Of a DNA stretch of 48,274 nucleotides, positions 7,648 to 39,883 are shown in pieces (position 1 is the stretch's first letter; each line of letters opens with the position of its first letter). This stretch comes from Gammaproteobacteria bacterium. Lineage in GTDB: Bacteria; Pseudomonadota; Gammaproteobacteria; Thiotrichales; Thiotrichaceae. The position numbers and the translations under genes were made by a program. The DNA lies in the NCBI GenBank assembly GCA_018822845.1, contig JAHJJD010000012.1, positions 1 to 48,274 of the forward strand, given 5' to 3'. Below the pieces are notes generated by a model that did not search any database, was not told the origin of the DNA, and saw only the letters and a program-made list of their open reading frames with translations.

Positions 7648-7734
7648 GCGGGTAGTACAAACCTTTTCCGCACTGCAAAAAACTCAGGTAACATCGGAAT
7701 GAGGATGAAACCCGGCTTCACCCGGCAAGCGATC

Positions 7735-7761
7735 TGGCGGTTTTCCGCCAGCCAGTGGCGG
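7735..7761 (+). promoter_or_regulatory. Activator palindrome upstream of maeB
   Basis: TGGCGGTTTTCCGCCA at 7735-7750 is the same TGGCGG-N4-CCGCCA palindrome found twice before dctP, with an additional half-site TGGCGG at 7756-7761. Its centre lies 109 bp above the GG of the candidate -24 box at 7851, the same spacing as in the dctP region. Confidence 0.6.
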
Positions 7762-7848
7762 TGCATACGGGCGTCATCACTCTTACGATGAGAATAAATC
7801 ACAAAAGCATCATACAGTTAGACTAATGAGAGGCGCATTGTCTCCGGT

Positions 7849-7865
7849 TCGGCACGATTTTTTCA
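7849..7865 (+). promoter_or_regulatory. Candidate sigma-54 promoter of maeB
   Basis: CGGCACG-ATTT-TTTCA matches the -24/-12 consensus except for the first T and the -13 G. The predicted start at about 7876 leaves a 38-nt leader before the chosen ATG at 7914, the same leader length as predicted for dctP. Alone it is weak; its geometry relative to the palindrome at 7735 supports it. Confidence 0.5.
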
Positions 7866-7913
7866 TTAGTGTCAGGGCTATGTTTTGATAACTGCTTTAG
7901 GATCACAACCACC

Positions 7914-10193
7914 ATGAAAGACGAACTCAACCAGGCCGCGCTGGATTACCACCAGTTCCCCAACCCCGGCAAACTCGAAGTCACCCCGACCAAGAACATG
8001 CTCAACCAGCGCGATCTGGCACTGGCGTATTCCCCCGGCGTCGCAGCCGCCAGTCTGGCAATTGCCGACAACCCGGCTTGCGCTGCTGATTACACCACGC
8101 GCGGCAATCTGGTGGCGGTGGTTTCCAACGGGACGGCGGTGCTGGGCCTGGGTTCGATTGGCGCACTGGCCTCCAAGCCGGTGATGGAAGGCAAGGCGGT
8201 GCTGTTCAAGAAATTCGCAGGCGTGAATGCTTTCGACATTGAGCTGGATACGCTGGACGTGGACAAGCTGGTGGAAGCCGTCGCCCTGATGGAACCCACT
8301 TTCGGTGGCATCAACCTGGAAGACATCAAGGCCCCGGAATGCTTTGAGGTGGAAAAGCGCCTGAAAGAGCGCATGAACATCCCCGTCTTCCACGACGACC
8401 AGCACGGTACCGCGATCTGTGTGGCGGCAGCCATCCGCAACGGTTTGCGGGTAGCAGGCAAGCATATCTCCGAGGTAAAACTGGTCTGCTCCGGCGCGGG
8501 TGCGGCGGCCATTGCCTGCATGAACCTGCTGGTGGAAATGGGCCTGAAAAAGGAAAACATCACCGTCAACGACCGCTTCGGCATCATCTACAAGGGGCGT
8601 GTCGAGGAAATGAACCCGTACAATTCCGCCTACGCCATCGACACCGATGCGCGCACGCTGGATGATGTGATGAATGGCGTCGACATATTCCTCGGCCTTT
8701 CCGCCCCGCGCGTGCTGAAACAGCACCATGTGAAAGTGATGGCGGAAAACCCCCTCATTCTGGCGCTGGCCAACCCCGAGCCGGAAATCCGCCCGGAACT
8801 GGTGTACGAAGTGCGTTCCGACGCGATCATTGCCACGGGCCGCAGCGACTATCCGAACCAGGTCAACAACGTGCTGTGCTTCCCGTTCCTGTTCCGTGGC
8901 GCGCTGGATGTGGGCGCGACCGAAATCAATGAGGCAATGAAAATTGCAGTGGTAGAAGCGATTGGCGATCTGGCCATGCGTGAAGCCTCCGACGTGGTGG
9001 TGTCGGCCTACGGTGGGGCGGAATTCCACTTCGGGCGCGAATACCTGATTCCCAAGCCGTTCGACCCGCGCCTGATGACCATCATCCCGCCGCGTGTGGC
9101 GAAAGCCGCGATGGAAACGGGCGTTGCTACCCGCCCGATCAGCGATTTCGATGCTTACCAACGCCAACTGGAAAGCTTCGTGTTCCGCTCCGGCATGACC
9201 ATGAAGCCAGTGTTCGAACGCGCCAGGCAGAACCCGCAGCGCATCGTGTTTGCGGAAGGCGAATCGCAGCGCGTCATCAATGCCGTGCAGATTCTGGTCG
9301 ACGATGGCATTTGCAAGCCGATCCTGCTCGGCAACCCCGAACTGATCCAGCAGAACATCGATGCCTACGACCTGCGTCTGAAGATCGGTGAAAACATCGA
9401 AGTCATTGACCCGCGCAACAACCCCGATTTCGAGCGACATGTGGCTGAGCATTACGCCGTCATGTGCCGCAAGGGTGTGACCCCGACCTACAGCCGCCGC
9501 GTGATGGCTGCCCGCACCACCCAGATTGCCGCCGTACTGGTGCGTTGCGGTGATGCCGACGCCATGATCTGCGGTGTGGAAGGTAATTTCATTTCGCACC
9601 TGCATTACGTGCGCGACCTGATCGGCGCTCGCCCCGGCCTGTCGGATGTTGCTGCGGTGACCATGCTGATCCTCAAGCGTGGCACCTACTTCCTGACCGA
9701 CACCCATGTCGGCGAAAACCCAACCCCGGAACAGCTGGCCGACATCACGGCGCTGGCCGCCGAACTGGTCGCTGGTTTCGGTATGGAACCCAAGGCCGCG
9801 CTACTGTCGCATTCCAATTTTGGCAGCCGCATGAACGAATTCTCTGACAAGATGCGCCGGACGCTGGCCGTGTTGCGTGAGAAATATCCACACATCCCGG
9901 CAGAAGGCGAAATGCACGTGGACGCAGCACTGTCGCAGGAAGTTCGCGACCGCCTGTTCCCCCATGCCGCCTTCCAGGGTGAAGCCAATTTACTGGTGTG
10001 CCCGGATCTGAATTCCGCCAACATTGCCTACAACATGACCAAGATGCTGGCGGATGGCCTGCCGGTCGGGCCAATGCTGGTGGGAACCAATTATCCGGTG
10101 CATATCCTGACCGAAAGTACGACCGTGCGCGGGATTGTGAACATGGCAGCGTTTGCGGCGGTGGAAGCGGCCAGCCGTAAGCAGCAGGCGTAA
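7914..10193 (+). CDS. maeB: NADP-dependent malic enzyme with C-terminal phosphotransacetylase-like domain
   Basis: A 759-residue MaeB-type enzyme that oxidatively decarboxylates malate to pyruvate in the cytoplasm. The N-terminal malic domain shows LALAYSPGVAAASLAI and FHDDQHGTAICVAAAIRNGL; the NAD(P) domain has KLVCSGAGAAAIACMNLL (about residues 185-205). From about residue 430 the sequence is a phosphate acetyl/butyryltransferase domain (RIVFAEGESQRVINAVQILV, ALLSHSNFGS), which in this family is generally regulatory, responding to acetyl-CoA, rather than catalytic. The ATG at 7914 (MKDELNQAALDYH) matches family N-termini; a start at 7869 would add a non-conserved tail. Upstream are the palindrome at 7735 and a candidate sigma-54 box, so its expression is probably linked to dicarboxylate uptake. 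Confidence 0.95.
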   Translation: MKDELNQAALDYHQFPNPGKLEVTPTKNMLNQRDLALAYSPGVAAASLAIADNPACAADYTTRGNLVAVVSNGTAVLGLGSIGALASKPVMEGKAVLFKKFAGVNAFDIELDTLDVDKLVEAVALMEPTFGGINLEDIKAPECFEVEKRLKERMNIPVFHDDQHGTAICVAAAIRNGLRVAGKHISEVKLVCSGAGAAAIACMNLLVEMGLKKENITVNDRFGIIYKGRVEEMNPYNSAYAIDTDARTLDDVMNGVDIFLGLSAPRVLKQHHVKVMAENPLILALANPEPEIRPELVYEVRSDAIIATGRSDYPNQVNNVLCFPFLFRGALDVGATEINEAMKIAVVEAIGDLAMREASDVVVSAYGGAEFHFGREYLIPKPFDPRLMTIIPPRVAKAAMETGVATRPISDFDAYQRQLESFVFRSGMTMKPVFERARQNPQRIVFAEGESQRVINAVQILVDDGICKPILLGNPELIQQNIDAYDLRLKIGENIEVIDPRNNPDFERHVAEHYAVMCRKGVTPTYSRRVMAARTTQIAAVLVRCGDADAMICGVEGNFISHLHYVRDLIGARPGLSDVAAVTMLILKRGTYFLTDTHVGENPTPEQLADITALAAELVAGFGMEPKAALLSHSNFGSRMNEFSDKMRRTLAVLREKYPHIPAEGEMHVDAALSQEVRDRLFPHAAFQGEANLLVCPDLNSANIAYNMTKMLADGLPVGPMLVGTNYPVHILTESTTVRGIVNMAAFAAVEAASRKQQA

Positions 10194-26004: not shown

Positions 26005-29000
26005 CTACAGCAACTTGTCATTGCCCAGCGGGCTTTCCTGTGGCTGGATGGCCTTGAACATCTGTTCACCAATCTTGCCTTGCAGCCGCAGATAAGGCCC
26101 TTCTGCATTTTGCTTGCCGGGGTCGAGATCCTTGTCTTCAAATCCGGTGGCGTTATAGCCGACCCCCAGCCGCCAGTCTTCCGCGACATTGACGTTGACG
26201 CCCGCTCCGGCTGAGTAACGGGTTTCGCCGCCGTCGCTATGCATGATGCCGCCGCGCAGCTCCGTATCCACCTTGCTGGTCAGCGCAACATTGAGGCTGG
26301 CGTCCGCCAGACCGGTGCGGGTTTTCAGCCTGATTGCCTGTTCGTTTTGCTGCTGGAATTTGCCCGCAACCCGTCCACTGACGCTAGTGTTGTTGCTCAC
26401 ACGGTAGTTTTGCCAGGTGGACAGGATATGGGTATTGCGCTTGCTGCTGACCTCACCGTCTGTCTTGCCATTTTTCCACTGGTACAGGTACTGGCTGTTG
26501 AGTTTGCCATCCCCGGCGGGGCGGTGTGCCGCGCCCAGGGTCAGGGTGTTGTCGAAGGTGGCACCAACAGCGCTGGAATCCCTGTGCAATTCCTCACGTA
26601 CCACACCGGTCCAGTCCTCGCTCATTTTGGCGATGTAACTGCCAGTGACACCGTAATAATCGCGCTGGTCGCCGTCGCGGCCTTCCACTTTCAGGTATTT
26701 CTGGCGATTGGTATTGCGGTTGTCAGCAACGGCGATGGAAGCGGCAGTGGTGTTTTCCAGCACATCGCCGCTGTTGACCTTCACCACTTCCAGCGTGGGG
26801 CTGATGATGAGGTTGTCATCCACCACGTAGTTGCCTTTGACGCCAGTGGCAGTTTCAGCATTGAGGCTATCATGGTTGCCGAACAAGCCTTCGGAACGGT
26901 ATTCGGTATACAGCTCGGTGTCCTTTTTCACCTTGGTTTTGGCACCGACGCTGAGCACGCTACGGCGCTGTTCATCAGTCAGCCCCTGCGTGCCGAGCAT
27001 GTCATTGCCATGATCGTATTTGGCGTAGATGGAAGAATCCTTGCCCACCAGCAATTCCGCATCGGCATAAGCATGGTTGAAAGCCGGGTCGCGGATGTCC
27101 TGCTCGTATTCCGCTGCCACCCGCCCGCCGCGCCCGAACACCTTGATATTGCGTTTGGCGGCGACCAGTGCGGTGTTGCGGGAAGAGGATTCATCAGCCG
27201 CCTGTTGTTCGATATGGCGCATCCCGCCCGCTACGCGCCATTCGCCCACGCGGGTTTCCACCCGTGCGCCGACCGCCTGATGGATGGTTTCACTGCTGAT
27301 GTTTTCGGAATGGATGCCTTCCAGTTTCAGGTCGGTATCCTTGTTCAGCGCCTGGGTGTGGTCGATGCGGGCCTCACGGCGGTCAGCGCCGATGCCCGAG
27401 CCGCTGCTGGTGAAACCCTTGTCAGCCTGGGCGAAGGTAACGGCGGTATTGGCGTCTTGCGACCAGCGGTGGCTGGCCTGCACCCGCTGGGCTGTGCCGC
27501 CCTCATCGCCGTTGGCGTGTTCCATTTGCGCGCTGCTGACGCTGACACGGGTATCCTTGTCCGGCTGGTAATCGACATAGGCACCAGACAGGGTATGCCC
27601 ATCGGTGGGGTGGTCATCCTGGGTGTAACTGCCACCCACGCTGATGGTTTCAGTGATGGCGCGTTTCACCCGCACCCCGGCAACGGTGTAGGGCTGCTCG
27701 CCGTCACTGTTTTCGCGGTCATAACTGATGCGCACCAACACCGGGTTGAGGTTTTCATCGAAAGTCGGAATGACCCGGTGGAAACGGAGGTCGCCCGATA
27801 CATCGTCCAGCGTGTAATCCACCACCCGTGTCAGGGTCGTGCTGGAAACGATCAGGCCGGGGTTGCTTTTATCCCGCACCAGCAATTCGACCACCGCACT
27901 GTTGGGCAGGATGTCGCCTTCCCCGACGCGAAAATTCATGCTGGTGCCATTACCGGGAATGAGTTCCACGAAGCGGCGGTTTTCCTGGCGGGCGGCGAAT
28001 ACATCCACTTCGGTCTTGCTGTCGCCGTAATGCGCCAGCGCCCCGGTCAGGTAACGCGGGTCACGCGCCAGATCGAGCCGGGCAGTGTCAAGGTCGACTC
28101 CTGCCTCGGTATTGTCCAGTTCGTAGTCACCGTACATGACGCTGTGCTGGCCTTTTTCCAGCTTGAGATAGAGCTTGTCCTTGCTGCGCGCGTCCTGGTC
28201 ACGGATCGAGCCATCACCCCGCGCCGGGGCGTAGCGGTCGTCGTTTTCATCCTGCAAATACGTGTTGTAATTGTAAGTGTCGTCGTTGTGCTTGGTGCTG
28301 TCGTAGGCAAAGGTCAGGTGCAAGCCGCCCTTGATCTTGCCTTTCATGAACACTTTGCCTTGCTTGCTCAGCCGGTCATCAGCCAGGTCGCCACCGTGGG
28401 CGGTAATGTCCAGATAGCCAGTAGCGATCAGCGGGCGCATGTAAACCACCTGTGCCAGCCTGGATTCACCCACCATTTGTTCCGAGATGATCTTGATGCG
28501 AACCTTGCCGGTGCGGTGGGAACTGCGCAAATGCACCACGCCTTCGCCATTGCTGATCCTGACCTGATGACCGGGAGTCGAGTCCTGGATGTCGGCCTCC
28601 ACCCAGCGCCCATCCGACGCTTCCAGCGTGAGGAAGTAATCACCCGCCGCAAGGTTGCCGTTGTTGTCCACGATGCGCACTTTGAGCGGCACTTTGGAAG
28701 CACCCCCATCGGCGGGCAGTTCCTCCAGTTCCGGGGTGATTTCGAGGTGTGTGCCACGTCCGGGGTTGATGAAGGTGGACTTGAGGGCGACGTTTTGCTT
28801 GCCTGTGGCATCCTTGCTGCGCACTTCAACCGTGTTGTTGCCTTTTTCCAGTGGAACGCCGTACCAGCTTGCCACCTGCACCTGTTTGGCTTCATCGCCA
28901 AGCTGTTCGCCCAATTGGGTTTCGGGAATGGCGTTGCCGTTGACGTACAGGGTGACGTTGCTGGCGGCTAATGGCAGCGCTGCCATGAAACGCCCGTCAG

Positions 29001-30171
29001 TGCTGGTGTTTTGCTTGGGCCACAGCCATGCGCCATTGCCGACTGTTTCCTTACCCACCTCCTTGAGGGCATCGCGTGATGACCAGACTGGTTGCTGTCC
29101 TGCTTCAGCTGCTGGCTGGGCGGCTTCGTCATCCAGCAGCGGGCCGATGTGGTCGGGGGAAACCTTGCGTTCGCCCTGCTCGAATACATCGGTATCCTTG
29201 AGCTTTTCGTTGAACTTCCTGACGGTGGCAAACACTTTCTGCTCGTCCTGTTGCGGGCATTCCGCGCTGAAATCGACGCGCTGGAAGCCGCCATCCGGCA
29301 TTTCCGCAAACTGGCTGGAGGCATCGCCAAGTTGCTGGTTGGAGCTAATGCGCAGCTTCGAACCTTTGGGTAGGGTCAACTGGTCGAGCTTGACGGTGTG
29401 CATCCCCGGTTTGACCGCATGAAAATTGTAATCGCCGCTTGCATCGGTAATGGCGTAACGCCCGTCTTCCAGATAGATGCGCACCCCGCCGATGGGTAGC
29501 AAGGTATTGGCCTGGCATTCCGCCGGAAAGCTGACCTTGCCGAAAAGTGCGCCTTCGTCTGACACCACACCCTGCCTGACGGCCCGCACTTTGACTTGCA
29601 CAGGGGCGGATGACAGCGTGGTGTTATCGTCGCGGGTAGCGCTGGCGTAGGCGGTGCTAAGGCTGTCGCCGTCACTGCTGGCGGAGACGCGCACGGTGTA
29701 GGTCAGGGTGCGGACTTGTTCCGCCGCCAGATCAGACAGCACGAAATTGACCCGCCCGTTGCTTGTCTCAGACACGCCGATGAAACGTTCGCCATCCAGC
29801 AGGGCGGAGCCTGCCACCAGCTTGAAGCCTTGCGCCAAACGCGCATTGATGCTGTAACGCGGTAAGGTTGCGCCGGTGTGGTTGGCAAAGCTGAAAGTAA
29901 AGGTCAGCAGGTCGCCGATTTCGGCCTCGCGCTGACTGGCACTGAAGCTGAGCGCCAGCGGTTGTTCCGCCGCCTGCGTGGTTTTGGCCGTCTGCTTTTT
30001 GCTAACCGCCAACGTAAGTGGTTGGGATTGGGCCGATTGCACCCGCTGGGTGGCGGGGTCGGTAAACTGCACCGTCATGGGTGCGCTGATTTCCACGGCG
30101 GCTGACGCTTTCGCTGCGATGAGCAGCATTGGCATCAGGGAACGTGGCAGTGCTTGAGGTAACTGCGGCAT
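26005..30171 (-). CDS. Giant predicted outer-membrane protein with DUF11-like and SdrD_B-like domains
   Basis: A 1388-residue exported protein. After a signal-like start (MLLIAAKASA) come a DUF11-like domain (about 70-200; SFANHTGATLPRYSINARL), an SdrD_B/CarboxypepD_reg-like domain (about 205-260; GGVRIYLEDGRYAITDASGDYNF), a region of about 120 residues without a clear domain, Big_1-like Ig folds (about 395-580), and from about 610 to the end hundreds of residues of alternating polar/aromatic strands (YLKLEKGQHSVMYGDYEL, RVSVSSAQMEHANGDEG, YRVSNNTSVSGRVAGKF) as in large beta-barrels. The terminal residue is not the usual Phe. It is last in the minus-strand surface cluster after VapBC. I infer an outer-membrane anchor or export pore for the DUF11/lectin proteins. 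A G11 tract and a possible TACAAT -10 lie just upstream of the start. Confidence 0.85.
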   Translation of the reverse strand: MPQLPQALPRSLMPMLLIAAKASAAVEISAPMTVQFTDPATQRVQSAQSQPLTLAVSKKQTAKTTQAAEQPLALSFSASQREAEIGDLLTFTFSFANHTGATLPRYSINARLAQGFKLVAGSALLDGERFIGVSETSNGRVNFVLSDLAAEQVRTLTYTVRVSASSDGDSLSTAYASATRDDNTTLSSAPVQVKVRAVRQGVVSDEGALFGKVSFPAECQANTLLPIGGVRIYLEDGRYAITDASGDYNFHAVKPGMHTVKLDQLTLPKGSKLRISSNQQLGDASSQFAEMPDGGFQRVDFSAECPQQDEQKVFATVRKFNEKLKDTDVFEQGERKVSPDHIGPLLDDEAAQPAAEAGQQPVWSSRDALKEVGKETVGNGAWLWPKQNTSTDGRFMAALPLAASNVTLYVNGNAIPETQLGEQLGDEAKQVQVASWYGVPLEKGNNTVEVRSKDATGKQNVALKSTFINPGRGTHLEITPELEELPADGGASKVPLKVRIVDNNGNLAAGDYFLTLEASDGRWVEADIQDSTPGHQVRISNGEGVVHLRSSHRTGKVRIKIISEQMVGESRLAQVVYMRPLIATGYLDITAHGGDLADDRLSKQGKVFMKGKIKGGLHLTFAYDSTKHNDDTYNYNTYLQDENDDRYAPARGDGSIRDQDARSKDKLYLKLEKGQHSVMYGDYELDNTEAGVDLDTARLDLARDPRYLTGALAHYGDSKTEVDVFAARQENRRFVELIPGNGTSMNFRVGEGDILPNSAVVELLVRDKSNPGLIVSSTTLTRVVDYTLDDVSGDLRFHRVIPTFDENLNPVLVRISYDRENSDGEQPYTVAGVRVKRAITETISVGGSYTQDDHPTDGHTLSGAYVDYQPDKDTRVSVSSAQMEHANGDEGGTAQRVQASHRWSQDANTAVTFAQADKGFTSSGSGIGADRREARIDHTQALNKDTDLKLEGIHSENISSETIHQAVGARVETRVGEWRVAGGMRHIEQQAADESSSRNTALVAAKRNIKVFGRGGRVAAEYEQDIRDPAFNHAYADAELLVGKDSSIYAKYDHGNDMLGTQGLTDEQRRSVLSVGAKTKVKKDTELYTEYRSEGLFGNHDSLNAETATGVKGNYVVDDNLIISPTLEVVKVNSGDVLENTTAASIAVADNRNTNRQKYLKVEGRDGDQRDYYGVTGSYIAKMSEDWTGVVREELHRDSSAVGATFDNTLTLGAAHRPAGDGKLNSQYLYQWKNGKTDGEVSSKRNTHILSTWQNYRVSNNTSVSGRVAGKFQQQNEQAIRLKTRTGLADASLNVALTSKVDTELRGGIMHSDGGETRYSAGAGVNVNVAEDWRLGVGYNATGFEDKDLDPGKQNAEGPYLRLQGKIGEQMFKAIQPQESPLGNDKLL

Positions 30172-30202
30172 GACACTCTACCTGTTTTTATTATTGTAAG
30201 AG

Positions 30203-30256
30203 CACCCCCTCCTAACCTCCCCCCCCCCCGCAAGGGGTGGAGGGGACAAGAGGACG
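30203..30256. repeat. GC-rich repeat with C11 homopolymer upstream of the barrel gene
   Basis: A short member of the cluster repeat family (CACCCCCTCCTAACCTCC, then GCAAGGGGTGGAGGGG) contains eleven consecutive C at 30219-30229, read as G11 in the direction of the barrel gene, whose ATG is 48 bp downstream. A TACAAT-like -10 on the minus strand at 30198-30193 would put the -35 region against this tract. Confidence 0.7.
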
Positions 30257-30306
30257 GGTTTTCTATTGTCACAGCGGTTTGGGTTTGGGGCTGCGACTAT
30301 TATTTT

Positions 30307-30714
30307 TTAGGGGTTGACTGGCAAGCAGTGCAGCCCGTAAGCGCGAAAATCACTGTCAATGGCAATCGCCGTTCCAATCTGGAGGCGTTGCGTCACAATA
30401 AAGCTGGTGCAATCCGTAAAACTGAAACAATGGTCACTGTATTTCAGGAACAATGCCCAAGCCTTCTGTTGATCGGCTTTAGTGATGTACTCAAGACGAC
30501 AAAGCGTTCCTGAATACAGCAACTCGCCAAACCGGACAGCAGCATTCCGACCCGCCCGATAACGCAGCAAGGTCAATGCTTCATCGGCAATAAAATCCGT
30601 TGTCAGTAGTAACGGATAGTGTGCTTCCAGCACTTCCGCGACCCGTTCATGGTCTGGGTCGTCTTTATCCATGTAGGCATACCATGCACCTGTATCAACC
30701 AAAATGTGCTGCAT
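30307..30714 (-). CDS. vapC: VapC-family PIN-domain toxin
   Basis: A 135-residue PIN-domain ribonuclease. Acidic active-site residues are in place: ILVDTGAWYAY (first Asp), DFIADEALTLLRY (Glu), FSFTDCTSFIV (Asp) and AIAIDSDFRAYG (last Asp). It follows the RHH antitoxin gene by two bases, the standard antitoxin-first order. The VapC family cleaves tRNA or rRNA when released from its antitoxin; the specific target here is unknown. The pair lies inside the surface cluster between the lectin genes and the barrel gene, on the same strand. Confidence 0.93.
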   Translation of the reverse strand: MQHILVDTGAWYAYMDKDDPDHERVAEVLEAHYPLLLTTDFIADEALTLLRYRAGRNAAVRFGELLYSGTLCRLEYITKADQQKAWALFLKYSDHCFSFTDCTSFIVTQRLQIGTAIAIDSDFRAYGLHCLPVNP

Positions 30715-30716
30715 GG

Positions 30717-30971
30717 TTAATCCTCATTCCAACGTTTTTCATGTGTATACAGAAAATCGTTGTGGTTTCTGCCTGTCGTTTTACCTTTCCCAGACACAAT
30801 GCCCTTTAACGCCAGCAGTGGGTTTTCTGCTGCCTTGGGTTGTGCCGCAACGGGAATATGCGCGTCCAACAACTCACGGATCACAGCGGAAATGCTGCGG
30901 TTCTTGAGTTTGGCGTAGCGTTGCAGGTTACGGTACTGCTTATCTTCCAGAGAAATTTGTGTCCTGTGCAT
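30717..30971 (-). CDS. vapB: Ribbon-helix-helix antitoxin (VapB-like)
   Basis: An 84-residue protein whose N-terminus MHRTQISLEDKQYRNLQRYAKLKNRSISAVIRELLDAH is a CopG/RHH DNA-binding domain. The C-terminal half (residues about 45-84) is the toxin-binding tail. The ATG at 30971 is preceded by GGGAG; an in-frame ATG at 30989 is inside the operator and less likely. A promoter and palindrome at 30989-31033 indicate autoregulation together with VapC. Confidence 0.9.
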   Translation of the reverse strand: MHRTQISLEDKQYRNLQRYAKLKNRSISAVIRELLDAHIPVAAQPKAAENPLLALKGIVSGKGKTTGRNHNDFLYTHEKRWNED

Positions 30972-30988
30972 TGTGTTCGCTCCCAACA

Positions 30989-31033
30989 TTACATGATGTA
31001 ATTATTATAGTGATGTAAGTCTATGGTAGCCAA
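30989..31033 (-). promoter_or_regulatory. vapBC promoter and operator
   Basis: On the minus strand TTGGCT (31033-31028), 18 bases and TATAAT (31009-31004) form the promoter. A 13-bp palindrome TTACATGATGTAA (30989-31001) plus a TGATGTAA half-site at 31011-31018 overlap the -10 and the start region, as expected for an RHH operator. Confidence 0.7.
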
Positions 31034-31047
31034 TTCTTTTGGAAGAT

Positions 31048-31152
31048 GCCCTCACCCCAACCCCTCTCCCAAAGGTGGAGGAGCTTAAGAAGGGGGAGTT
31101 CTCCTGTTCCCCCTCTACCGCTTGGCGGGAGAGGGGGCTAGGGGGTGAGGGC
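31048..31152. repeat. Cluster palindromic repeat, unit 1
   Basis: CCCTCACCCCAACCCCTCTC at 31049 is mirrored by GAGAGGGGGCTAGGGGGTGAGGG ending at 31151, with inner text CTCCTGTTCCCCCTCTACCG shared with the unit at 32606. It lies between vapBC and the first lectin gene and ends six bases before that gene's stop codon. Confidence 0.8.
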
Positions 31153-31157
31153 CTTTC

Positions 31158-32561
31158 TTAGTCAATCTTCACACTAAACTGTGCATCCGGGCTGGTTGCA
31201 CCGACAGCTACGTCACCAACGGTGGCTGACACAGTTTTGCTGGCGGCAGTGTAAGTACCGGTGTCAGCATCAGCCGCATCCGTTTGGGCAACGCCATCAA
31301 TGCTCAACGTATCTGGCTGGTAAGTGGCGTATTGTGGGACGGTGTAGTTCAGTACGATGCCTTTCGCCAGCGACTCGCCGTTGTTAGTGGCGCGGCTGCG
31401 CATGATGGCGCATTCACCGGAACCCATTTCTTCCAGACGTACTGTGCCAAATACGTCATCCGCTGTGCCGTCGCAGGCAACGTCTTTCGCGCCTTCCAGC
31501 TCAACCGCAACACTTGGCAGGTCACAATCAGTATCAAATTCAACAATGTACATACGGCGGTTATCAGCCAGTGTACCGTAAGCATCGCCCCACTTGCCTA
31601 ACCCCCAGCTCCATTCAGCAACGGAGGCTGTCATGGCGATGGCATCAGTCGTCTGGTCTCCATCTGGATTACCGCTGGCCCAGTTGGTATAGGAGAATGC
31701 TTCCCCTGTTACCCATGCAAAGCTGCTCCCGACGCCTTCCAAACCTATCCATGCGACACCACCACTGGTTGTGGGAATCTTTCCAGCGACGTAGGCATTT
31801 TCTTCCGCACTGGTTGGCGTGACCAAATGCCCTGTTTTGCCTTGATAGAGCAATGTTGCTGCCTGTGTTTTGGCATTAGCCCAAGTAATCGCCGCTCCCG
31901 GCTGGATAACGGTGTACGCATGGCAGTTACCACCTGATAGCTGGTCCCAAACATGGAGAGGCGTGGTGACGTTGGTGTCTTGGAAGGTGATATTGACCGT
32001 ATTGGTGCTGCTGGCTACCGTGCTTGTGGAGTCGGTGGCATCCAAGGTCACTTTCAAGGTATCACTAGCTGCAATCGTGGCTGGCAGAACCGTTTCCACG
32101 ATCAATTTGGCGGACGCGCCCGCCGTCAATCCCTGCGAAGTGATGGGTGTTGTTTCCTCAGTATCCAGTGCGCCATTGCCGTTGGCATCCAGATAGATTT
32201 TGATGTCTGCTGCATCCAGCGTATCGCCACCACCTGTGACGTTAGCCGCTGCCAGTGCGTAAGTCTCGGCGACGTTACCGTTATTGGTCAGGGTGTGGAC
32301 GCTGTAGACCTTGCTACCGGAAACCATTGGCACTTGCTGGTTTTCACCGGAAGTGATGGTCAGGGTCGCAGTACGCACTTCGCGGATACTGATTTCCACG
32401 ATATTGGATTCAGCCGTGTAAGCCTTGCCGCCGATGTCGGTGTACGTGACGGTCACTTTGTTTTGCAGGACTGCGCCACCGGGGGGGGCAGCAACGGCAA
32501 TGCCAGTCAGCAGCGACAGGGCTACGGAACTGGCAAGGGGTTTTAATTTGAACATTTTCAT
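31158..32561 (-). CDS. Secreted C-type-lectin protein 1 (NPD type)
   Basis: A 467-residue exported protein. The signal peptide (ending AVAA) is followed by a DUF11-like beta-sandwich with repeated EIS and calcium-loop-like YLDANGNGALD (about residues 30-200), a C-type-lectin-like core (about 204-346) opening GGNCHAY and closing EFDTDC, and a C-terminal DUF11-like half domain with CAIMRSRATNNGESLAKG. The core has WVTGEAFSYTNWASGNPDGD: the position of the sugar-selecting EPN/QPD triplet reads NPD, and the WND site reads KWGD. Most of the sequence outside the core is shared with the two paralogues downstream in coordinate. A run of eight C at 32481-32488, near codon 26, is absent from the paralogues and could slip. 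Confidence 0.88.
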   Translation of the reverse strand: MKMFKLKPLASSVALSLLTGIAVAAPPGGAVLQNKVTVTYTDIGGKAYTAESNIVEISIREVRTATLTITSGENQQVPMVSGSKVYSVHTLTNNGNVAETYALAAANVTGGGDTLDAADIKIYLDANGNGALDTEETTPITSQGLTAGASAKLIVETVLPATIAASDTLKVTLDATDSTSTVASSTNTVNITFQDTNVTTPLHVWDQLSGGNCHAYTVIQPGAAITWANAKTQAATLLYQGKTGHLVTPTSAEENAYVAGKIPTTSGGVAWIGLEGVGSSFAWVTGEAFSYTNWASGNPDGDQTTDAIAMTASVAEWSWGLGKWGDAYGTLADNRRMYIVEFDTDCDLPSVAVELEGAKDVACDGTADDVFGTVRLEEMGSGECAIMRSRATNNGESLAKGIVLNYTVPQYATYQPDTLSIDGVAQTDAADADTGTYTAASKTVSATVGDVAVGATSPDAQFSVKID

Positions 32562-32605
32562 TTTTATGACTCTCTGTTTTTGTATTGTTGGGTTTGAAAG
32601 CGTTC

Positions 32606-32706
32606 CATCACCCCAACCCCTATCCCAGAGGTAGAGGGGCTTAAGACGGGGTGTTCTCCTGTTCCCCCTCTACCGCTTGGCGGGAGAGGGGGCTAGGGGG
32701 TGAGGG
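32606..32706. repeat. Cluster palindromic repeat, unit 2
   Basis: Arms CATCACCCCAACCCC and CTAGGGGGTGAGGG enclose a core almost identical to unit 1, including TTCCCCCTCTACCGCTTGGC. It lies between the second and first lectin genes. Confidence 0.8.
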
Positions 32707-32712
32707 TATTTT

Positions 32713-34068
32713 TTAGTCGATCACCACACTGAATTCCGCATCCGGGCTGACAGCACCTACCGCCAGATCACCCGCATTGAATTGCACCTTTTTGGTGGCT
32801 GCCACATACGTGCCGTTGTCAGTGTCAGCCGCATCGGTTTTCGCAGTACCATCAAACTTCAGTGTGTCGGCCTTGTAGGAGGCGTACTCCGGCACGGTGT
32901 AGCTCATCAGCACACCTTCGGCGAGGGATTCGCCATTGTTGGTGGCGCGGCTGCGCATGATCGCGCATTCACCGGAGTACATATCCGCCAGACGTGCCGT
33001 GCCGAAAGCAGCATCCGCCGTGCCGTCACAACCTACGTCTTTCGCGCCTTCCAGCTCAACCACCACGCTTGGCAGCGCACAATCCGTGTCAAATTCGATC
33101 AGGTAAGTGTTTGACCCTGATATATCATCCCACTTACTGGCATCCACATGACCCATCACCATGAATGAACCACTGCCATTGGGTTCTCCAGGATACCAGT
33201 TGGTGTAACTGAACAGTTCACCCGTTATCCACTCAAATTTACCTGTGCCCGTATTCTTTTTACCACCCAAAAACGCGCTACTTGATGGTTTCACATTAGC
33301 GAAAATGAAAGCATTCTCCCCTGCCTCAGTGATAGTCGCCAGATGCCCGATTTTACCGTTATGCATCTGAGTTTCTGCTTCAGCTTTAGCCTGATCCCAT
33401 GTCAATGTTTTCTGAATCCAAGCGTAAGCATGGCAGTTACCACCAGCCGTTTGCTCCCAGACTTTCGGCACATAACTGATGTTGCTGTTGGTGAAGGTGA
33501 TGTTGACCGTATTGATGCTGCTGGCGGTTGTGCCTGCGGAATCGGTCGCGTTCAGTGTGACTTTCAGGGTGTCGCTGGCTGCCATTGTCGCAGGTAGGAC
33601 GCTTTCTACGATCAGTTTGGCGGACGCACCTGCTGCCAATGAAGTGGAGGTAAGCGGTGTGTTGCCTTCTGTGCCATTCAGGACACCATTACCGTCAGTA
33701 TCAAGGTAGATTTTGATGTCTGCTGCATCCAGCGTATCGCCACCACCTGTGACGTTAGCCGCAGCCAAGTCATAGGTTTCGCCGATGTTACCGTTGTTGG
33801 CGAGGGTGTGGACGCTGTAGACCTTGCCGCCCGGAAGCATAGCCACCTGTTGGTTTTCACCGGAAGTGATAGTTAAGGTAGCACCGCGCACTTCGCGGAT
33901 GCTGATTTCAACGATGTTGGACTCAGCGGTATAAGTCTTGCCGCCGATGTCGCTGTACGTGGCAGTGACTTTGTTTTGCAGGATTGCGCCACCGGGGGCA
34001 GCAGCAACGGCGATGCCAGTCAGCAGCGACAGCGCGATGGAACTCGCGAGGGGTTTCATTTTGAACAT
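32713..34068 (-). CDS. Secreted C-type-lectin protein 2 (EPN type)
   Basis: A 451-residue paralogue of its neighbours with the same order: signal peptide, DUF11-like domain with YLDTDGNGVLN, lectin core (about 203-330) and DUF11-like end. The core reads WITGELFSYTNWYPGEPNGSG, so the triplet is EPN, which in animal C-type lectins goes with mannose/glucose-type ligands, and KWDD stands where WND would be. The opening NCHAY and closing FDTDC cysteines are kept. The flanks are nearly identical to protein 3 (AAAPGGAILQNKVTATYSDI), whereas the core residues between the fixed landmarks are largely different. The start follows AGAGAGTCAT, a leader shared by all three genes. Ca2+ and sugar binding is inferred. 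Confidence 0.88.
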   Translation of the reverse strand: MFKMKPLASSIALSLLTGIAVAAAPGGAILQNKVTATYSDIGGKTYTAESNIVEISIREVRGATLTITSGENQQVAMLPGGKVYSVHTLANNGNIGETYDLAAANVTGGGDTLDAADIKIYLDTDGNGVLNGTEGNTPLTSTSLAAGASAKLIVESVLPATMAASDTLKVTLNATDSAGTTASSINTVNITFTNSNISYVPKVWEQTAGGNCHAYAWIQKTLTWDQAKAEAETQMHNGKIGHLATITEAGENAFIFANVKPSSSAFLGGKKNTGTGKFEWITGELFSYTNWYPGEPNGSGSFMVMGHVDASKWDDISGSNTYLIEFDTDCALPSVVVELEGAKDVGCDGTADAAFGTARLADMYSGECAIMRSRATNNGESLAEGVLMSYTVPEYASYKADTLKFDGTAKTDAADTDNGTYVAATKKVQFNAGDLAVGAVSPDAEFSVVID

Positions 34069-34103
34069 GGTTATGACTCTCTGTTTTTATATTGTTGGAA
34101 GAA

Positions 34104-34207
34104 ACCCCTCACCCCCTCGCCCCCTCTCCCTCAAGGGGCGAGGGGGAAGAAGAAAGTGGGTTTCTTAGCCCCTCTCCCCTTGAGGGAGAGGGGTTGGGGT
34201 GAGGGGT
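34104..34207. repeat. Cluster palindromic repeat, unit 3
   Basis: ACCCCTCACCCCCTCGCCCC and its mirror GGGGTTGGGGTGAGGGGT bracket CTCTCCCTCAAGGGGCG and CTCCCCTTGAGGGAGAGGGG. It is closer in wording to the dctP-dctQ unit at 5931 than to units 1 and 2. It lies between the third and second lectin genes. Confidence 0.8.
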
Positions 34208-34220
34208 TTCTTGGTCTTTC

Positions 34221-35585
34221 TTAGTCAATCACGACACTGAATTCTGCATCCGGGCTGGTCACGCCCACATCTACATCACCTGCATTGAACTGCACCTTTT
34301 TGGTAGCTGCCACATACGTGCCGTTGTCGGCGTCAGCCGCATCAGTTTTTGCAGCGCCGTCAAACTTCAGCGTGTCTGCCTTGTAGCTGGCGTATTGCGG
34401 GACGGTGTAGCTCATCAGCACGCCTTTGGCGATGGATTCGCCATTATTGGTGGCACGGCTGCGCATGATGGCGCATTCACCGGAGTACATGCTTTCCAGA
34501 CGTACCGTACCGAAAGCGTCATCCGCCGTGCCATCGCAATCTACGTCTTTCGCACCCTCCAATGCCACCGCCACCTCTGGTTGTGGGCAGTCAATATCAA
34601 ACTCGATGACGTAAAATGCTGAGGCGCTGCTCGTTACATCGTGCCATACGCCGTCATACCGCCAAGCAAGTGCATCTTCCCCTGCATTGTCAGGTTGTCC
34701 TGACATCCAGTTGGTATAAGAGAATGCCTCACCCGTTACCCATGCAAATGGGGAGGTAGCACCACCTGTACGTTTTGCACCAATCCAGTAGTTATTGTTG
34801 CTACTATTGACGGCATTTTTGATAAATGTATTCTCTGCTGCACTGGTAATGGTTGCCAAATGCCCCATTTTACCATTGAACATCGAAGCTTCTGCATCAG
34901 CTTTTGCTGGCAAATACGACAGTGCTTTATTGACTCCGGCGTAAGCATGGCAGTTACCGCCTGCGGCTTGTTGCCAAATGACCGGGGTATAGCTGACATT
35001 GCTGTTTTTGAAGGTAATGTTGACCGTGTTGAGACTCGCAGCATCCGTACCTTCGGAGTCAGTTGCCTTCAGTGTGACCTTCAACGTATCACTGACGGCG
35101 ATGGTAGCAGGCAGAACACTTTCCACAATCAGCTTGGCAGATGTGCCAGCCAGCAGCGAGGTGGAGGTAATGGCGGTTGCACCTTCTGTACCGTCCAATA
35201 CACCGTTACCGTTTACGTCGAGGTAGATTTTCAGAGCTGATGCATCAAGAGTATCAGCACCGCCTGTGACGTTATCCGCTGTGAGCGTAAAGGGTTCAGT
35301 AGTGTTACCGTTGTTGGTCAGGGTGTGGACGCTGTAGACCTTGCTAGACGGAATCATCGCCACTTGCTGGTTTTCACCTAGCGTGATGGCCAAGGTGGCA
35401 GTGCGCACTTCGCGGATGCTGATTTCAACAATGTTGGACTCAGCGGTATAAGTCTTGCCGCCGATGTCGCTGTACGTGGCAGTGACTTTGTTTTGCAGGA
35501 TTGCACCACCGGGGGCAGCAGCAACAGCAATACCAGTCATCAGTGATAGCGCGATGGAACTCGCGAGGGGTTTCATGTTGAACAT
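34221..35585 (-). CDS. Secreted C-type-lectin protein 3 (QPD type)
   Basis: A 454-residue exported paralogue, nearest to the start of the cluster. The signal peptide and DUF11-like N-terminus are almost the same as in protein 2. The lectin core (about 202-333) reads WVTGEAFSYTNWMSGQPDNAGED, so the selector triplet is QPD, which in animal lectins marks galactose-type binding; VWHDVT stands at the WND site. GGNCHAY and EFDIDC mark its ends, and the DUF11-like end with SGECAIMRSRATNNGES follows. Small differences also occur in the N-terminal domain (TADNVTGGADTLDASALK). It is probably co-transcribed with, or controlled in parallel to, the small DUF11-like protein at 35762. Confidence 0.88.
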   Translation of the reverse strand: MFNMKPLASSIALSLMTGIAVAAAPGGAILQNKVTATYSDIGGKTYTAESNIVEISIREVRTATLAITLGENQQVAMIPSSKVYSVHTLTNNGNTTEPFTLTADNVTGGADTLDASALKIYLDVNGNGVLDGTEGATAITSTSLLAGTSAKLIVESVLPATIAVSDTLKVTLKATDSEGTDAASLNTVNITFKNSNVSYTPVIWQQAAGGNCHAYAGVNKALSYLPAKADAEASMFNGKMGHLATITSAAENTFIKNAVNSSNNNYWIGAKRTGGATSPFAWVTGEAFSYTNWMSGQPDNAGEDALAWRYDGVWHDVTSSASAFYVIEFDIDCPQPEVAVALEGAKDVDCDGTADDAFGTVRLESMYSGECAIMRSRATNNGESIAKGVLMSYTVPQYASYKADTLKFDGAAKTDAADADNGTYVAATKKVQFNAGDVDVGVTSPDAEFSVVID

Positions 35586-35619
35586 TTTTATGACTCTCTG
35601 TTTTTATATTGTTGGAAAA

Positions 35620-35677
35620 AACCCCTCCTAACCTCCCCTTGTCAGGGGAGAGACAAGAGGAGGGTTGGGGAGGGAGT
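35620..35677. repeat. Cluster palindromic repeat, short unit
   Basis: ACCCCTCCTAACCTCCCC and its mirror GAGGGTTGGGGAGGGAGT lie upstream of lectin gene 3. Just beyond it, TGACTCTCTATTTTACC (35681-35697) resembles the leader of the lectin genes without a gene attached, and CCGGGAC/GTCCCGG (35696-35702, 35721-35727) forms a further hairpin. Confidence 0.65.
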
Positions 35678-35761
35678 TCTTGACTCTCTATTTTACCGGG
35701 ACGAGATATCCCCTCCGGTTGTCCCGGCAGCAATACGGAAGGGGGTCGAAGGAAAGGGGTT

Positions 35762-36262
35762 TTACTTCACTTTTACGCGGTAGCTGTAAACCTGCTCCGC
35801 ATTGCCGGGAATGCCATCAGTCGGCATCCAGCGCACGTGGGTGTATTGGGCAGGCGGAATGACGGCTTCCACTTCCTGGCCAGTTTCATCTTTCACCATG
35901 CGCTTGACCGGCTCGCCTTCAAAGGTCTTGCCGCCGTCAATGCTGACTTCAAAGTTGGCAGCTACTGGAGCCTGGTTAGTGCCAGCTTGATATTCAGTGG
36001 TTTTGGGGATGGGGCCGGTGACAATCACGCCAGACAGCGGGTCTGCACTATTGTTTTTGTAGACGGCGCGGAATTCAACCGTTTGTTTAGGGTCGACTTC
36101 CTTGGTCTGGGTGGCAACTTCATTACCTTGCGCATCGGCGGTGATGGCGTAGGCATTCATGGTGATTTGCAGCGGGCCATTGTCGGCGGCGAAGGCGGCA
36201 GCAGCGGAGATGGCCAGCGCGCTGGCAACAAAAAGACTGGCAAGTTTGGTTTTGATATTCAT
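35762..36262 (-). CDS. Small secreted DUF11-like protein
   Basis: A 166-residue exported protein. The signal peptide MNIKTKLASLFVASALAISAAAAFA is cut before ADNGPLQ. The mature part is one beta-sandwich of the DUF11 kind: ITMNAYAITADAQGNEVATQTKEVDPKQTVEFRAVYKNNSADPLSGVIVTGPIPKTTEYQAG, ending RWMPTDGIPGNAEQVYSYRVKVK. It is first in the minus-strand surface cluster and lacks a lectin core. It may be a linker or cap for the larger DUF11/lectin proteins, or a minor structural subunit (inference). Its upstream region is AT-rich and holds the GTTAC dyad. Confidence 0.85.
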   Translation of the reverse strand: MNIKTKLASLFVASALAISAAAAFAADNGPLQITMNAYAITADAQGNEVATQTKEVDPKQTVEFRAVYKNNSADPLSGVIVTGPIPKTTEYQAGTNQAPVAANFEVSIDGGKTFEGEPVKRMVKDETGQEVEAVIPPAQYTHVRWMPTDGIPGNAEQVYSYRVKVK

Positions 36263-36519: not shown

Positions 36520-36936
36520 TTATGCCTGCAATGCTGCCTGCATGGTACAGACGTGCCGCGCGGCAACCTCGGTTGTATAAGCTTGCGGCGCAAATTTTCC
36601 CCACACGGGCGCAGGCCAGGCTGCATCCGTCTGGAAACGGGCGATATGGTGCAGGTGCAATTGCGGAACCATGTTCCCCAACGCAGCCAGATTCAGCTTG
36701 TGCGGCTGAAACAGTGCCATCAAGGCGCGGCTGAGCTGATCCGATTCCTGCCACAACTGCTGGCGGTCTGCCAGTTCCAGTTCATGAATTTCACGGATAG
36801 CTGCCCGCCGGGGCACCAGAATAAACCACGGATAGCGTGATTCATTCATCAGCAACACCCGGCACAGCGGCAGGTCGGTTACGCAATGGGTATCCTGCGC
36901 CAGTTGCGGGTGCAGGTTGAAATCGGCTTCACTCAT
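36520..36936 (-). CDS. HIT-family hydrolase
   Basis: A 138-residue histidine-triad protein. The catalytic stretch NMVPQLHLHHIARFQTD (about residues 87-103) matches the HIT-like branch with QLHxHxIAR wording; upstream CRVLLMNESRYPWFILVPRR and AALGNMV are also typical. HIT proteins hydrolyse nucleotide phosphoramidates or dinucleotides in the cytoplasm. Its ATG overlaps the end of the reductase gene by four bases, so they share a transcript. Confidence 0.9.
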   Translation of the reverse strand: MSEADFNLHPQLAQDTHCVTDLPLCRVLLMNESRYPWFILVPRRAAIREIHELELADRQQLWQESDQLSRALMALFQPHKLNLAALGNMVPQLHLHHIARFQTDAAWPAPVWGKFAPQAYTTEVAARHVCTMQAALQA

Positions 36937-37973
36937 GCCTTGTCTTCCTGCATGGCCTTGAGGGTGTCAGGGCTGTATTCGAAGGAATCGTAATACAAAT
37001 GTGCTTCCGCCAGGCCCTGCGCCAGGAACGCTTTTTTCGCCGCATTGATCATCGGCGGCGGGCCGCTCATGTACACGTCGTAAGCGGACAAATCGGGGAA
37101 ATCGGCAGCGACAGCTTCATGCACCCAGCCAGTACGCCCTTGCCAGTTATCTTGCGGCTGCGGTTCGGAAAGTACCGGCACATAAGTCAGTCGCGGGTGA
37201 CGGGACACCCAGCTACGCACCACGCTATCCATGTACAAATCAGGCTTGGCGCGCACGCCCCAGTAGAGATGGACAGGCTTTTCCAGCCCCTGCGCCATCA
37301 TCTGTTCCAGCATCCCTTTCAGCGGGGCAAAACCGGTGCCGCCGCCGATCAGGATGATGGGCCGTTCCGATTCGTGGATGTAGAAACTGCCCAGCGGCCC
37401 ACGAATGCGCAACAGGGCTTTTTCCTTCATCTCGTTGAATACATGGGAGGTGAAAAAGCCACCCGGCACATGGCGGATGTGCAATTCCAGAAAGCTGTCA
37501 TCCAGCGGCGAATTCGCCAGTGAAAAGCCACGCTGCTTGCCGTCTTTCAGCAGGATGTCGACGTACTGCCCGGCGAGGAAGCGCAAGCGTTCGGACGCTG
37601 GCAATTTGAGCGTCAGCTCCATCACGTCAGCAGCCAGCTTGCGCATCTTTTCCACCCGCACCGGCAGGGTTTTGACTTCGATGTCTGGCTCGGCACCCAC
37701 TTGCGGGGAATCGATTTCCAGATGGCTGAGCGCAGCCGCCATGCATAACAGCGCCTTGCCGTTTTCCATTTCGGCAGGCGTCAGCCCCTGCGGCTCGCCA
37801 AACGGGTAATGCACCTGACCGCTCAGGATGGTTGCTGCGCAGGAACCACACATCCCGCCCCGGCAACCATAAGGCAAAGCCACCCCCTGGCGTAAACCGG
37901 CGTCCAGCACCGTTTCGTTTTCTTCCGCCCAAAACGTATGCCCGGAAGGCTTTACCGTCACCTGATAAGTCAT
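36933..37973 (-). CDS. 2Fe-2S ferredoxin-FAD/NAD(P)H reductase (AscD/CDP-6-deoxyglucoseen reductase type)
   Basis: A 346-residue single-chain electron-transfer flavoprotein. The N-terminal plant-type ferredoxin domain has cysteines C37, C42, C45 and C77 (YGCRGGMCGSC...LLCMAA). The FAD domain follows (RFLAGQYVDILL, RGFSLANSP), then the NAD-binding domain (IILIGGGTGFAPLKGMLEQMM, YWGVRAKPDLY, YMSGPPPMINAAK). This order matches phenol hydroxylase reductase and CDP-6-deoxy-delta-3,4-glucoseen reductase; the latter name is often given to housekeeping proteobacterial copies whose true partner is unknown. No deoxysugar or aromatic pathway genes are adjacent. Confidence 0.92.
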   Translation of the reverse strand: MTYQVTVKPSGHTFWAEENETVLDAGLRQGVALPYGCRGGMCGSCAATILSGQVHYPFGEPQGLTPAEMENGKALLCMAAALSHLEIDSPQVGAEPDIEVKTLPVRVEKMRKLAADVMELTLKLPASERLRFLAGQYVDILLKDGKQRGFSLANSPLDDSFLELHIRHVPGGFFTSHVFNEMKEKALLRIRGPLGSFYIHESERPIILIGGGTGFAPLKGMLEQMMAQGLEKPVHLYWGVRAKPDLYMDSVVRSWVSRHPRLTYVPVLSEPQPQDNWQGRTGWVHEAVAADFPDLSAYDVYMSGPPPMINAAKKAFLAQGLAEAHLYYDSFEYSPDTLKAMQEDKA

Positions 37974-38075
37974 GCTGTTTCCTGTTAAATCGTTAAGTGT
38001 CTGGATTGTAACTTGCGCATCCGGCTTGTGCTATTCTCCAGAGTTTTCCAAGATTTGTAGCCGGAGAGAATACCC

Positions 38076-39272
38076 ATGCGCATCGGAACCCCGCTTTCCC
38101 CTTCAGCCACCCGCGTGATGCTGCTCGGCAGCGGCGAACTTGGCAAGGAAGTCATCATTGCCCTGCAACGTCTGGGGGTGGAGGTGATTGCCGTCGACCG
38201 TTACCCGAACGCACCGGGGCATCAGGTGGCACACCGTTCCCACACCATCAACATGGCCGACCCGCAAGCCTTGCGCGCACTGGTCGAGCAGGAAAAACCA
38301 CAACTGATCGTGCCAGAAATCGAAGCGATTGCCACCGACGAACTGGCCCGCATCGAAGCTGACGGGCTGGCCGAAGTCATCCCCACCGCGCGCGCCACCC
38401 AACTGACCATGAACCGCGAAGGCATCCGCCGTCTGGCCGCCGAAGAATTGGGCTTACCCACCTCACGCTACCATTTCGCTTCCAGCCTCGCCGACATGCA
38501 GGCCGCAGCCGATGACGTGGGCTACCCCTGTTTCGTCAAGCCGGTCATGTCTTCCTCCGGCAAGGGCCAGTCTATGCTGAAAAGCGCGGATGAAGTCGAG
38601 GCAGCGTGGGAATACGCCCTCTCCGCCGGGCGCATCAACCACGGGCGCGTGATTGTGGAAGAATGCATCCATTTCGACTACGAAATCACCCTGCTCACAG
38701 TACGTGCGCGTGGCGCGAAAGGCGAGATCGAAACGCATTTCTGTGCCCCCATCGGCCACCGTCAGGTCAAGGGCGATTACGTCGAAAGCTGGCAAGCGCA
38801 GCCGATGAGCGACGCAGCACTGGCCAAGGCACAGGATATTGCCGCCCAAGTCACCGCCAACCTCGGTGGACGTGGCCTGTTTGGGGTGGAACTGTTCGTG
38901 CGTGGCGACGAGGTGTATTTCTCCGAAGTCAGCCCGCGCCCACACGACACCGGCATGGTAACCATGGCGACCCAGTTCCAGAACGAATTCGAGCTGCACG
39001 CGCGCGCCATCCTCGGCCTGCCGGTCGATACTTCCATGCATTCCACCGGGGCCAGCGCGGTCATTTACGGCGCTATGGAGGCTGAAGGCATCGCCTTTGA
39101 AGGGGTGGAACATGCCCTGCAAGTGCCGGAAAGCGACATCCGCCTGTTCGGCAAACCGGTTTCCTTCGAGCGCCGCCGCATGGGTGTGGCACTGGCGCGT
39201 GGCAAGGATAGCGACGAAGCCCGCGCCCGCGCCGCCGAAGCTGCTAGCCGGGTCAAGCCGGTACAAGGCTGA
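38076..39272 (+). CDS. purT: Formate-dependent phosphoribosylglycinamide formyltransferase PurT
   Basis: A 398-residue ATP-grasp enzyme that makes formyl-GAR from GAR, formate and ATP in purine synthesis. [26 protein letters not shown] is the PurT opening; ATP-grasp motifs include [16 protein letters not shown] and [10 protein letters not shown]...[17 protein letters not shown]. The length agrees with E. coli PurT. GGAGAG precedes the ATG. It is followed after 11 bp by cobO. Confidence 0.96.
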
Positions 39273-39283
39273 GTGATCATTCC

Positions 39284-39883
39284 ATGACCGATCAAAACCA
39301 GCACCACAAGCAGCGCATGGAACGCAAGAAAGCCGTGATCGACGCCAGCATTGCCCAGGCCAGCGCCGACAAGGGGCTGCTGCTGGTGCTGACCGGTAAT
39401 GGCAAGGGCAAATCCAGCTCCGCCTTCGGCATGGTCGGGCGGGCGCTGGGGCATGGCCTGAAGGTCGGCGTCTGCCAGTTCATCAAAAGCCGCACCGATA
39501 CTGGCGAGGAAGCCTTTTTCGGCAAGCAACCAAACTGCGAGTGGCATGTGCTGGGCGACGGCTTCACCTGGGATACGCAGGATCGCGAACAGGACATCGC
39601 CACTTCCCAACGCGGCTGGGAAATCGCCCGCAAGATGCTGGCCGACCCCGCTTACGATCTGGTGGTGCTGGACGAGCTCACCTACCTGCTGAACTACGCC
39701 TATCTGGATGCGGAACAGGCGCTGGCCGACATCGCCGCCCGCCCACCGATGCAGCATGTGGTCGTGACCGGGCGCGCCGCCAGCCCCGCCTTGCGCGAAC
39801 TGGCGGATACGGTGTCAGAGATTGTGGATGAGAAACATGCTTTCCGTGCTGGGGTGCAGGCGCAGAAGGGCATTGATCTTTAA
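39284..39883 (+). CDS. cobO: Cob(I)yrinic acid a,c-diamide adenosyltransferase
   Basis: A 199-residue CobO/BtuR (CobA-type) enzyme that adenosylates the cobalt of corrinoids. The P-loop GNGKGKSSSAFGMVGRALGHG (about residues 36-56) and the end VVLDELTYLLNYAYLD...HVVVTGRAAS are diagnostic. The N-terminal basic helix HHKQRMERKKAVIDASIAQA is usual for the family. It lies 11 bp after purT. The histidine phosphatase beyond the restriction module may be its cobalamin-pathway partner. Confidence 0.95.
   Translation: MTDQNQHHKQRMERKKAVIDASIAQASADKGLLLVLTGNGKGKSSSAFGMVGRALGHGLKVGVCQFIKSRTDTGEEAFFGKQPNCEWHVLGDGFTWDTQDREQDIATSQRGWEIARKMLADPAYDLVVLDELTYLLNYAYLDAEQALADIAARPPMQHVVVTGRAASPALRELADTVSEIVDEKHAFRAGVQAQKGIDL

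Follow-up and report, generated by a model that had tools for sequence, protein, structure and literature searches.

Adhesins of the intimin/invasin type carry a C-type-lectin-like tip on Ig-like domains at the outer membrane, with barrel and tip forming one polypeptide. In the 48,274-nucleotide stretch of Thiotrichaceae DNA analysed here (contig JAHJJD010000012.1 of assembly GCA_018822845.1, hereafter the window), three tandem paralogues on the minus strand at 31158-35585, genes A, B and C, each encode a C-type-lectin-like domain (CTLD), whereas the putative barrel protein is the product of a separate gene. Modular adhesin tips are also known from the mosaic adhesive trimer (MAT) fibres of Bdellovibrio bacteriovorus, where the fibre regions of Bd2133 and Bd1334 are 75% identical, the tips have been exchanged in evolution and the tip of Bd2740 has a C-type-lectin fold (PMC10769870). 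The window set resembles the MAT adhesins in its near-constant part, its exchanged portion and the C-type-lectin fold found in one of their tips. However, MAT adhesins are trimeric beta-helix fibres with a C-terminal tip, whereas the window cores lie between two constant domains, in tandem genes, on a DUF11-like scaffold with no sequence evidence of a trimeric fibre. DUF11 has been named as a stalk domain of fibrillar adhesins (PMC9210967), and the partner proteins and CTLD-less relatives of the window proteins have DUF11 matches; unlike these stalks, the N and C domains of the CTLD proteins themselves have no Pfam match over cut-off. The C-type-lectin fold also serves as the variable scaffold of proteins diversified by diversity-generating retroelements (DGRs; PMC6328139), which differ from the window proteins, where whole domains are exchanged. 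Adhesins with modular tips are thus already known; what is new here is the two-sided scaffold, the tandem set and the direct evidence that a core has passed from one species to another.

Our interpretation, to which we give a probability of roughly 70%, is that an exported two-sided scaffold presents exchangeable lectin cores, together with a small partner protein and a large putative outer-membrane protein. Each of the three proteins starts like a signal peptide (as judged by eye) and divides into an N part of some 200 residues, a core (134-149 residues) and a C part of some 120. The original prediction had described three secreted tandem paralogues with similar outer parts and divergent cores, and this held, as did its size for the N part; the C part is longer than the 110 residues it gave. 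Amino acid identities for A-B, A-C and B-C were 81%, 74% and 79% in the N part (about 200 residues), 50%, 46% and 44% in the core (125-128 aligned residues) and 84%, 74% and 71% in the C part (122 residues), respectively. The core is flanked in all three proteins by GGNCHAY and FD[IT]DC, and each protein has four cysteines, two at the core ends (212 and 333 in A) and two in the C part (350 and 371 in A). The predicted selector triplets were found two residues past the shared SYTNW: QPD at residue 297 of A, EPN at 295 of B and NPD at 298 of C.

Divergence along the genes was uneven; an even spread had been named as fatal to the prediction. The best two-breakpoint fit of B against C split B after residues 192 and 321 into three successive tracts with 111/573, 187/376 and 101/392 nucleotide differences. 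The A-B and A-C fits gave a broader middle tract (residues 61-344 and 94-342 of A, respectively) since similarity is greatest at the start of the N region, A and B having only 9 differences in their first 183 nucleotides. Permutation of the polymorphic sites gave patterns as clustered as observed in 0/2000 (A-B), 2/2000 (A-C) and 2/2000 (B-C) cases. This test ignores differences in rate between domains, so that for the window pairs it shows uneven divergence and not recombination.

Evidence of exchange came from comparison with relatives of the same genus. The locus is also present in genomes G003 and G010, which belong to other species and have two lectin genes each, and in G008, with one (4 of the 16 genus genomes searched). 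Core A was 98% identical in amino acids and 96% in nucleotides to that of gene G010_A, with a synonymous divergence (dS) of 0.14 (codon bootstrap 0.07-0.23), and 97% and 96% identical to that of G003_A (dS 0.17). The dS of the N part was 0.81 (bootstrap 0.56-1.19) against G010_A and 0.92 against G003_A, and that of the C part, only 66-67% identical in amino acids, was 1.88 (bootstrap lower bound 1.01) and 1.79, respectively; in the comparison with G010_A the bootstrap range of the core overlapped neither that of the N part nor that of the C part. As background divergence, the flanking genes gave dS values of 1.16 (166-aa gene), 1.20 (1388-aa gene) and 3.09 (response regulator), and three stretches of the window at 36520-39883, whose counterparts sit elsewhere in the other genomes, were 82%, 73% and 79% identical in nucleotides to G010 and 81%, 72% and 78% to G003. 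Core A is far less diverged than the outer parts, the flanking genes and the three chromosomal stretches, and its history therefore differs from that of its scaffold.

Against G010_A, the fitted tract of A runs from nucleotide 583 to 1004 (residue 194 to 335), with 120/579, 14/421 and 119/359 differences before, within and after it; against G003_A the edges fell at nucleotides 571 and 1004. Computing breakpoints by domain had been proposed as a check, and they lie at the domain edges, in agreement with cassette exchange, one of the two origins initially put forward. None of 2000 permutations was as clustered as the A-G010_A pair, in which 270/285 sites of the segment match against 451/704 overall; because the pattern is reversed, with the core the most alike, this is the only pair whose permutation result is by itself evidence of exchange. 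The same test gave 0/2000 for G010_A-G010_B and 20-380 of 2000 for the remaining five of the ten pairs. In approximately unbiased (AU) tests on DNA, grouping A with its orthologues was rejected for the N part (p = 0.0007) and the C part (p = 0.035), and grouping the three window genes was rejected for the core (p = 0.024); on protein, the C part was significant (p = 0.004). Nearly identical core A DNA was found in 3 of the 16 genus genomes. The second lectin gene of G003 (locus L037, about 6100-7700) is broken as assembled, by a frame change and an internal stop, whereas the copy in G010 is almost the same in sequence and intact.

The cores themselves are C-type-lectin-like, as predicted. All three exceed the curated cut-off of Pfam Lectin_C (PF00059; Table 1), and they have the WIG-like, EPN/QPD/NPD and W-x-D landmarks of that family. 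A phmmer search with B against PDB found surfactant protein D first (E 2.3e-8) among 99 distinct sequences up to E 1. The model of core A, built from the three window cores (mean predicted local distance difference test score (pLDDT) 60.9, predicted template modelling score (pTM) 0.60), matched CEL-I first in Foldseek (E 7.8e-6, TM about 0.6), with CD23 also among the 59 matches up to E 0.001; the best 50 of these 59 were all, by title, C-type-lectin-like proteins or complexes with one. Residues 73-109 and 113-119 of the model, where the Ca2+ site is expected, are below pLDDT 50, and the site was therefore judged from sequence alone.

Several results weigh against our interpretation. Neither AU tree was rejected on protein for the N part (p = 0.183) or the core (p = 0.154). 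The exchange of core A is the only one dated, no close donor of cores B and C was found among the 63 family genomes searched, and both exchange tracts rest on one genome per species. The full-length model is too poor to use (mean pLDDT 50.2, pTM 0.37), and the Pfam matches for a C-terminal beta-barrel in the 1388-aa protein are below cut-off. Lastly, all three cores appear to depart from the canonical Ca2+ site of animal lectins. In an alignment by hand with the ligand positions of animal lectins, the five positions hold Q, D, E, H and D in A, E, N, S, D and D in B, and N, D, T or D, G and D in C; the cores also differ from the animal pattern in having two cysteines each, at the core ends.

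The strongest competing explanation, which we rate at somewhat less than even odds, starts from these ligand positions: the cores would keep the C-type-lectin fold and bind proteins, ice, minerals or other ligands without Ca2+, and the triplets would have no sugar meaning. By sequence the ligands look non-canonical in every core, and the Bdellovibrio fibre tip of C-type-lectin fold is reported to bind no calcium (PMC10769870). However, A retains Q, D, E and D of the five positions and B retains E, N and two D, which leaves a site possible. The split of sugar specificity by EPN and QPD suggested in the original prediction is unproven at the level of sequence. Among 22 scanned loci with other bacterial lectin matches, 8 fitted the pattern, which allowed a limited set of triplets, and had EPN (5) or QPD (3); both triplets therefore recur widely among bacteria, and finding them side by side here does not in itself point to split specificity.

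Concerted evolution, in which the cores are old, vertically inherited paralogues and gene conversion keeps the outer parts alike within each genome, is improbable. It would account for the DNA trees of the N and C parts, which place the window genes together, for the nearly identical first 183 nucleotides of A and B and for the closeness of G010_A and G010_B in their N parts (dS 0.52). However, a vertical core should match its neighbours in divergence (dS about 1.2), whereas core A has 0.14, and the outer parts of A and B are no recent copies (dS 0.78 and 0.65). The 5' tract of A and B points, as sequence, to some homogenising conversion inside the genome; such conversion probably happens too, without explaining core A.

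It is very unlikely that the genes were duplicated and their cores then diversified by positive selection with no exchange. Non-synonymous divergence (dN) between the window pairs was indeed higher in the cores (0.48-0.56) than in the outer parts (0.10-0.18), but the synonymous sites of the cores are saturated too, so that the cores are older or foreign and not merely faster. The dS of the window-core pairs was 4.11, 2.11 and undefined, which makes dN/dS uninterpretable there, and between species (against G010 and G003) core A has a dN/dS of about 0.07-0.08; the diversification by selection that had been offered alongside cassette exchange is therefore not supported.

Targeted mutagenesis by a DGR is extremely unlikely: although C-type-lectin-fold proteins are typically diversified by DGRs (PMC6328139) and loci of this kind exist in the same genome, the longest similarity of the cores to the three reverse transcriptase (RT) loci spans 16 bases, one of them mismatched, and the core differences have no adenine bias (of 167 A-B mismatches, 45 have adenine in A and 47 in B). 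The cores were thus rejected as DGR variable proteins, as neither a template repeat nor adenine-specific differences were found, in a comparison that covered the three RT loci and not the whole genome. The RT genes of the genome gave three matches, two of them over cut-off and that of L003 weak. The repeats of L001 (G000:C39) and L003 (G000:C16) have 16/17 and 18/18 mismatches at adenines of the second copy (template), and that of L002 (G000:C3), 33 bases only, has 2/2; the target in L001 is an FGE-sulfatase-domain protein. The idea that the whole protein came from a phage or plasmid was likewise rejected: no relative was confirmed among 66 pattern stretches of viral contigs, 4 records of Flavobacterium phages matched over 26% of the query, and none of the 11 matching plasmid records reached 80% coverage.

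The exchangeable cores of our interpretation are encoded within a conserved gene cluster (Table 1). The 166-aa partner gene lies upstream of the lectin genes, and a ribbon-helix-helix (RHH) and PIN gene pair and the 1388-aa gene lie downstream; the order partner, CTLD gene, outer-membrane protein gene is kept in G010, G003 and G008. Up to E 1, the 1388-aa protein gave neither a PDB sequence relative nor an OmpA match. The DNA of the RHH-PIN pair (30307-30971) occurs in 3 of the 16 genus genomes, with 94% identity to both G003 and G010; the PIN protein is 100% identical to that of G010, with a dS of 0.18, far below that of neighbouring genes. On these sequences the pair appears as a second recently shared tract of the lectin locus. 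C-rich/G-rich palindromic repeats, by eye like repetitive extragenic palindromic (REP) elements, are present in both spacers between the lectin genes and in those at 30972-31157, 35586-35761 and 30172-30306, and could be recombination sites. Scans for promoters (6 found, 6.1 expected) and terminators (10 found, 14.3 expected) gave no excess over chance.

Table 1. Positions in the window of the lectin genes, their cores and spacers, and the neighbouring genes of the cluster.
Feature	Position	Strand	Basis
CTLD gene A, 454 aa, triplet QPD	34221..35585	-	Lectin_C 40.1 bits, cut-off 22.6
Exchanged core tract of A, residues about 194-335	34582..35003	-	two-breakpoint fit against the G010 gene
A-B spacer, C-rich/G-rich palindromic repeat (REP-like, by eye)	34069..34220	-	
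CTLD gene B, 451 aa, triplet EPN	32713..34068	-	Lectin_C 27.8 bits
Core of B	33079..33480	-	
B-C spacer, repeat of the same kind as in the A-B spacer (REP-like, by eye)	32562..32712	-	
CTLD gene C, 467 aa, triplet NPD	31158..32561	-	Lectin_C 31.8 bits
Core of C	31524..31970	-	
166-aa exported partner, weak DUF11-type match	35762..36262	-	TIGR01451 24.0 bits, at cut-off; Pfam DUF11 below cut-off
84-aa ribbon-helix-helix protein, antitoxin-like	30717..30971	-	RHH_1 24.6 bits, cut-off 20.5
135-aa PIN-domain protein, toxin-like; VapBC-type pair with RHH gene	30307..30714	-	
1388-aa putative outer-membrane protein	26005..30171	-	DUF11 27.2 bits, cut-off 24.6

Clusters without a CTLD were found in the same genome (L040) and in G012, G019, G011 and G008 (L069-L072). 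They encode a protein of about 1000 aa that resembles the lectin proteins at both ends, its N-terminal end matching their N part and its C-terminal domain their C part, beside a homologue of the 1388-aa protein of 2006-2065 aa (cut by the contig end in L040). The small partner is present in four of these five clusters, being absent from the list of open reading frames of L069. In L069 the long homologue contains an OmpA domain (46.8 bits), located in a region that, according to the alignment, is missing from the 1388-aa protein. The lectin cluster may be read as a shortened variant in which the lectin core replaces about 690 residues. The description of the scaffold as DUF11-like is based on homology to these CTLD-less relatives and on one sub-threshold TIGR01451 match. 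L040 also encodes an ATP-sulfurylase over cut-off with an adjoining flavoprotein, and L071, in a relative, encodes a cysteine-rich CCG-domain protein; the host looks like a sulfur oxidiser.

In the arrangement that we propose, the N and C domains would form a scaffold holding the C-type-lectin-like domain between two conserved cysteines. The 1388-aa putative outer-membrane protein and the 166-aa partner would most likely export or anchor the lectins, facing outward, a role that we infer from the cluster. The displayed domains may bind sugars or other surface molecules, presumably for adhesion to cells, polysaccharide or surfaces. Each cell would store several versions of the core in tandem as exchangeable cassettes, of which at least the QPD core would have moved between species by recombination ending at the domain edges, the outer parts keeping their own history.

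Matches to the core A protein were found in 6 of 63 family genomes, to the core alignment in 11 of 369 class genomes (E 1e-8) and to Lectin_C in 5 of 299 phylum genomes (E 1e-6, own genome included) and 0 of 14 control genomes. A first scan of named genomes gave no stretch encoding a relative (0/69), and a second gave one Saprospiraceae locus of 28% identity. Among the open-licence papers listed, searched by title and start of the abstract, none describes this protein set or lectin flagellins, and the words rosette, holdfast, lectin, gonidia and polysaccharide are all absent from the text of PMC9455678. In another genome of the phylum, two tandem flagellins (L086, G501:C47:4000-18000, at 5161-6459 and 7256-8548, minus strand) carry a Lectin_C domain flanked by Flagellin_N and Flagellin_C, each of the three exceeding its Pfam cut-off; their ends are 74% and 83% identical in amino acids and their cores 45%, with triplets EPN and QPD. 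They are a separate case of the design with a lectin between constant ends. A broader proposal, that the locus belongs to a dedicated lectin-cassette system whose cores circulate among species apart from the scaffold and trade specificities, the design having arisen separately in flagellins, is doubtful and is offered as tentative.

If true, it would mean that bacteria have repeatedly arrived at a C-type lectin framed by the constant ends of a surface polymer. The tandem lectin flagellins suggest that such a design exists outside this locus. The window locus offers a clear natural example of a binding domain travelling between species in one piece, with a scaffold that remains local. The animal members of the family have a known sugar-preference code, which makes the EPN/QPD code testable in bacteria, and the locus makes it testable whether related bacteria swap binding specificities.

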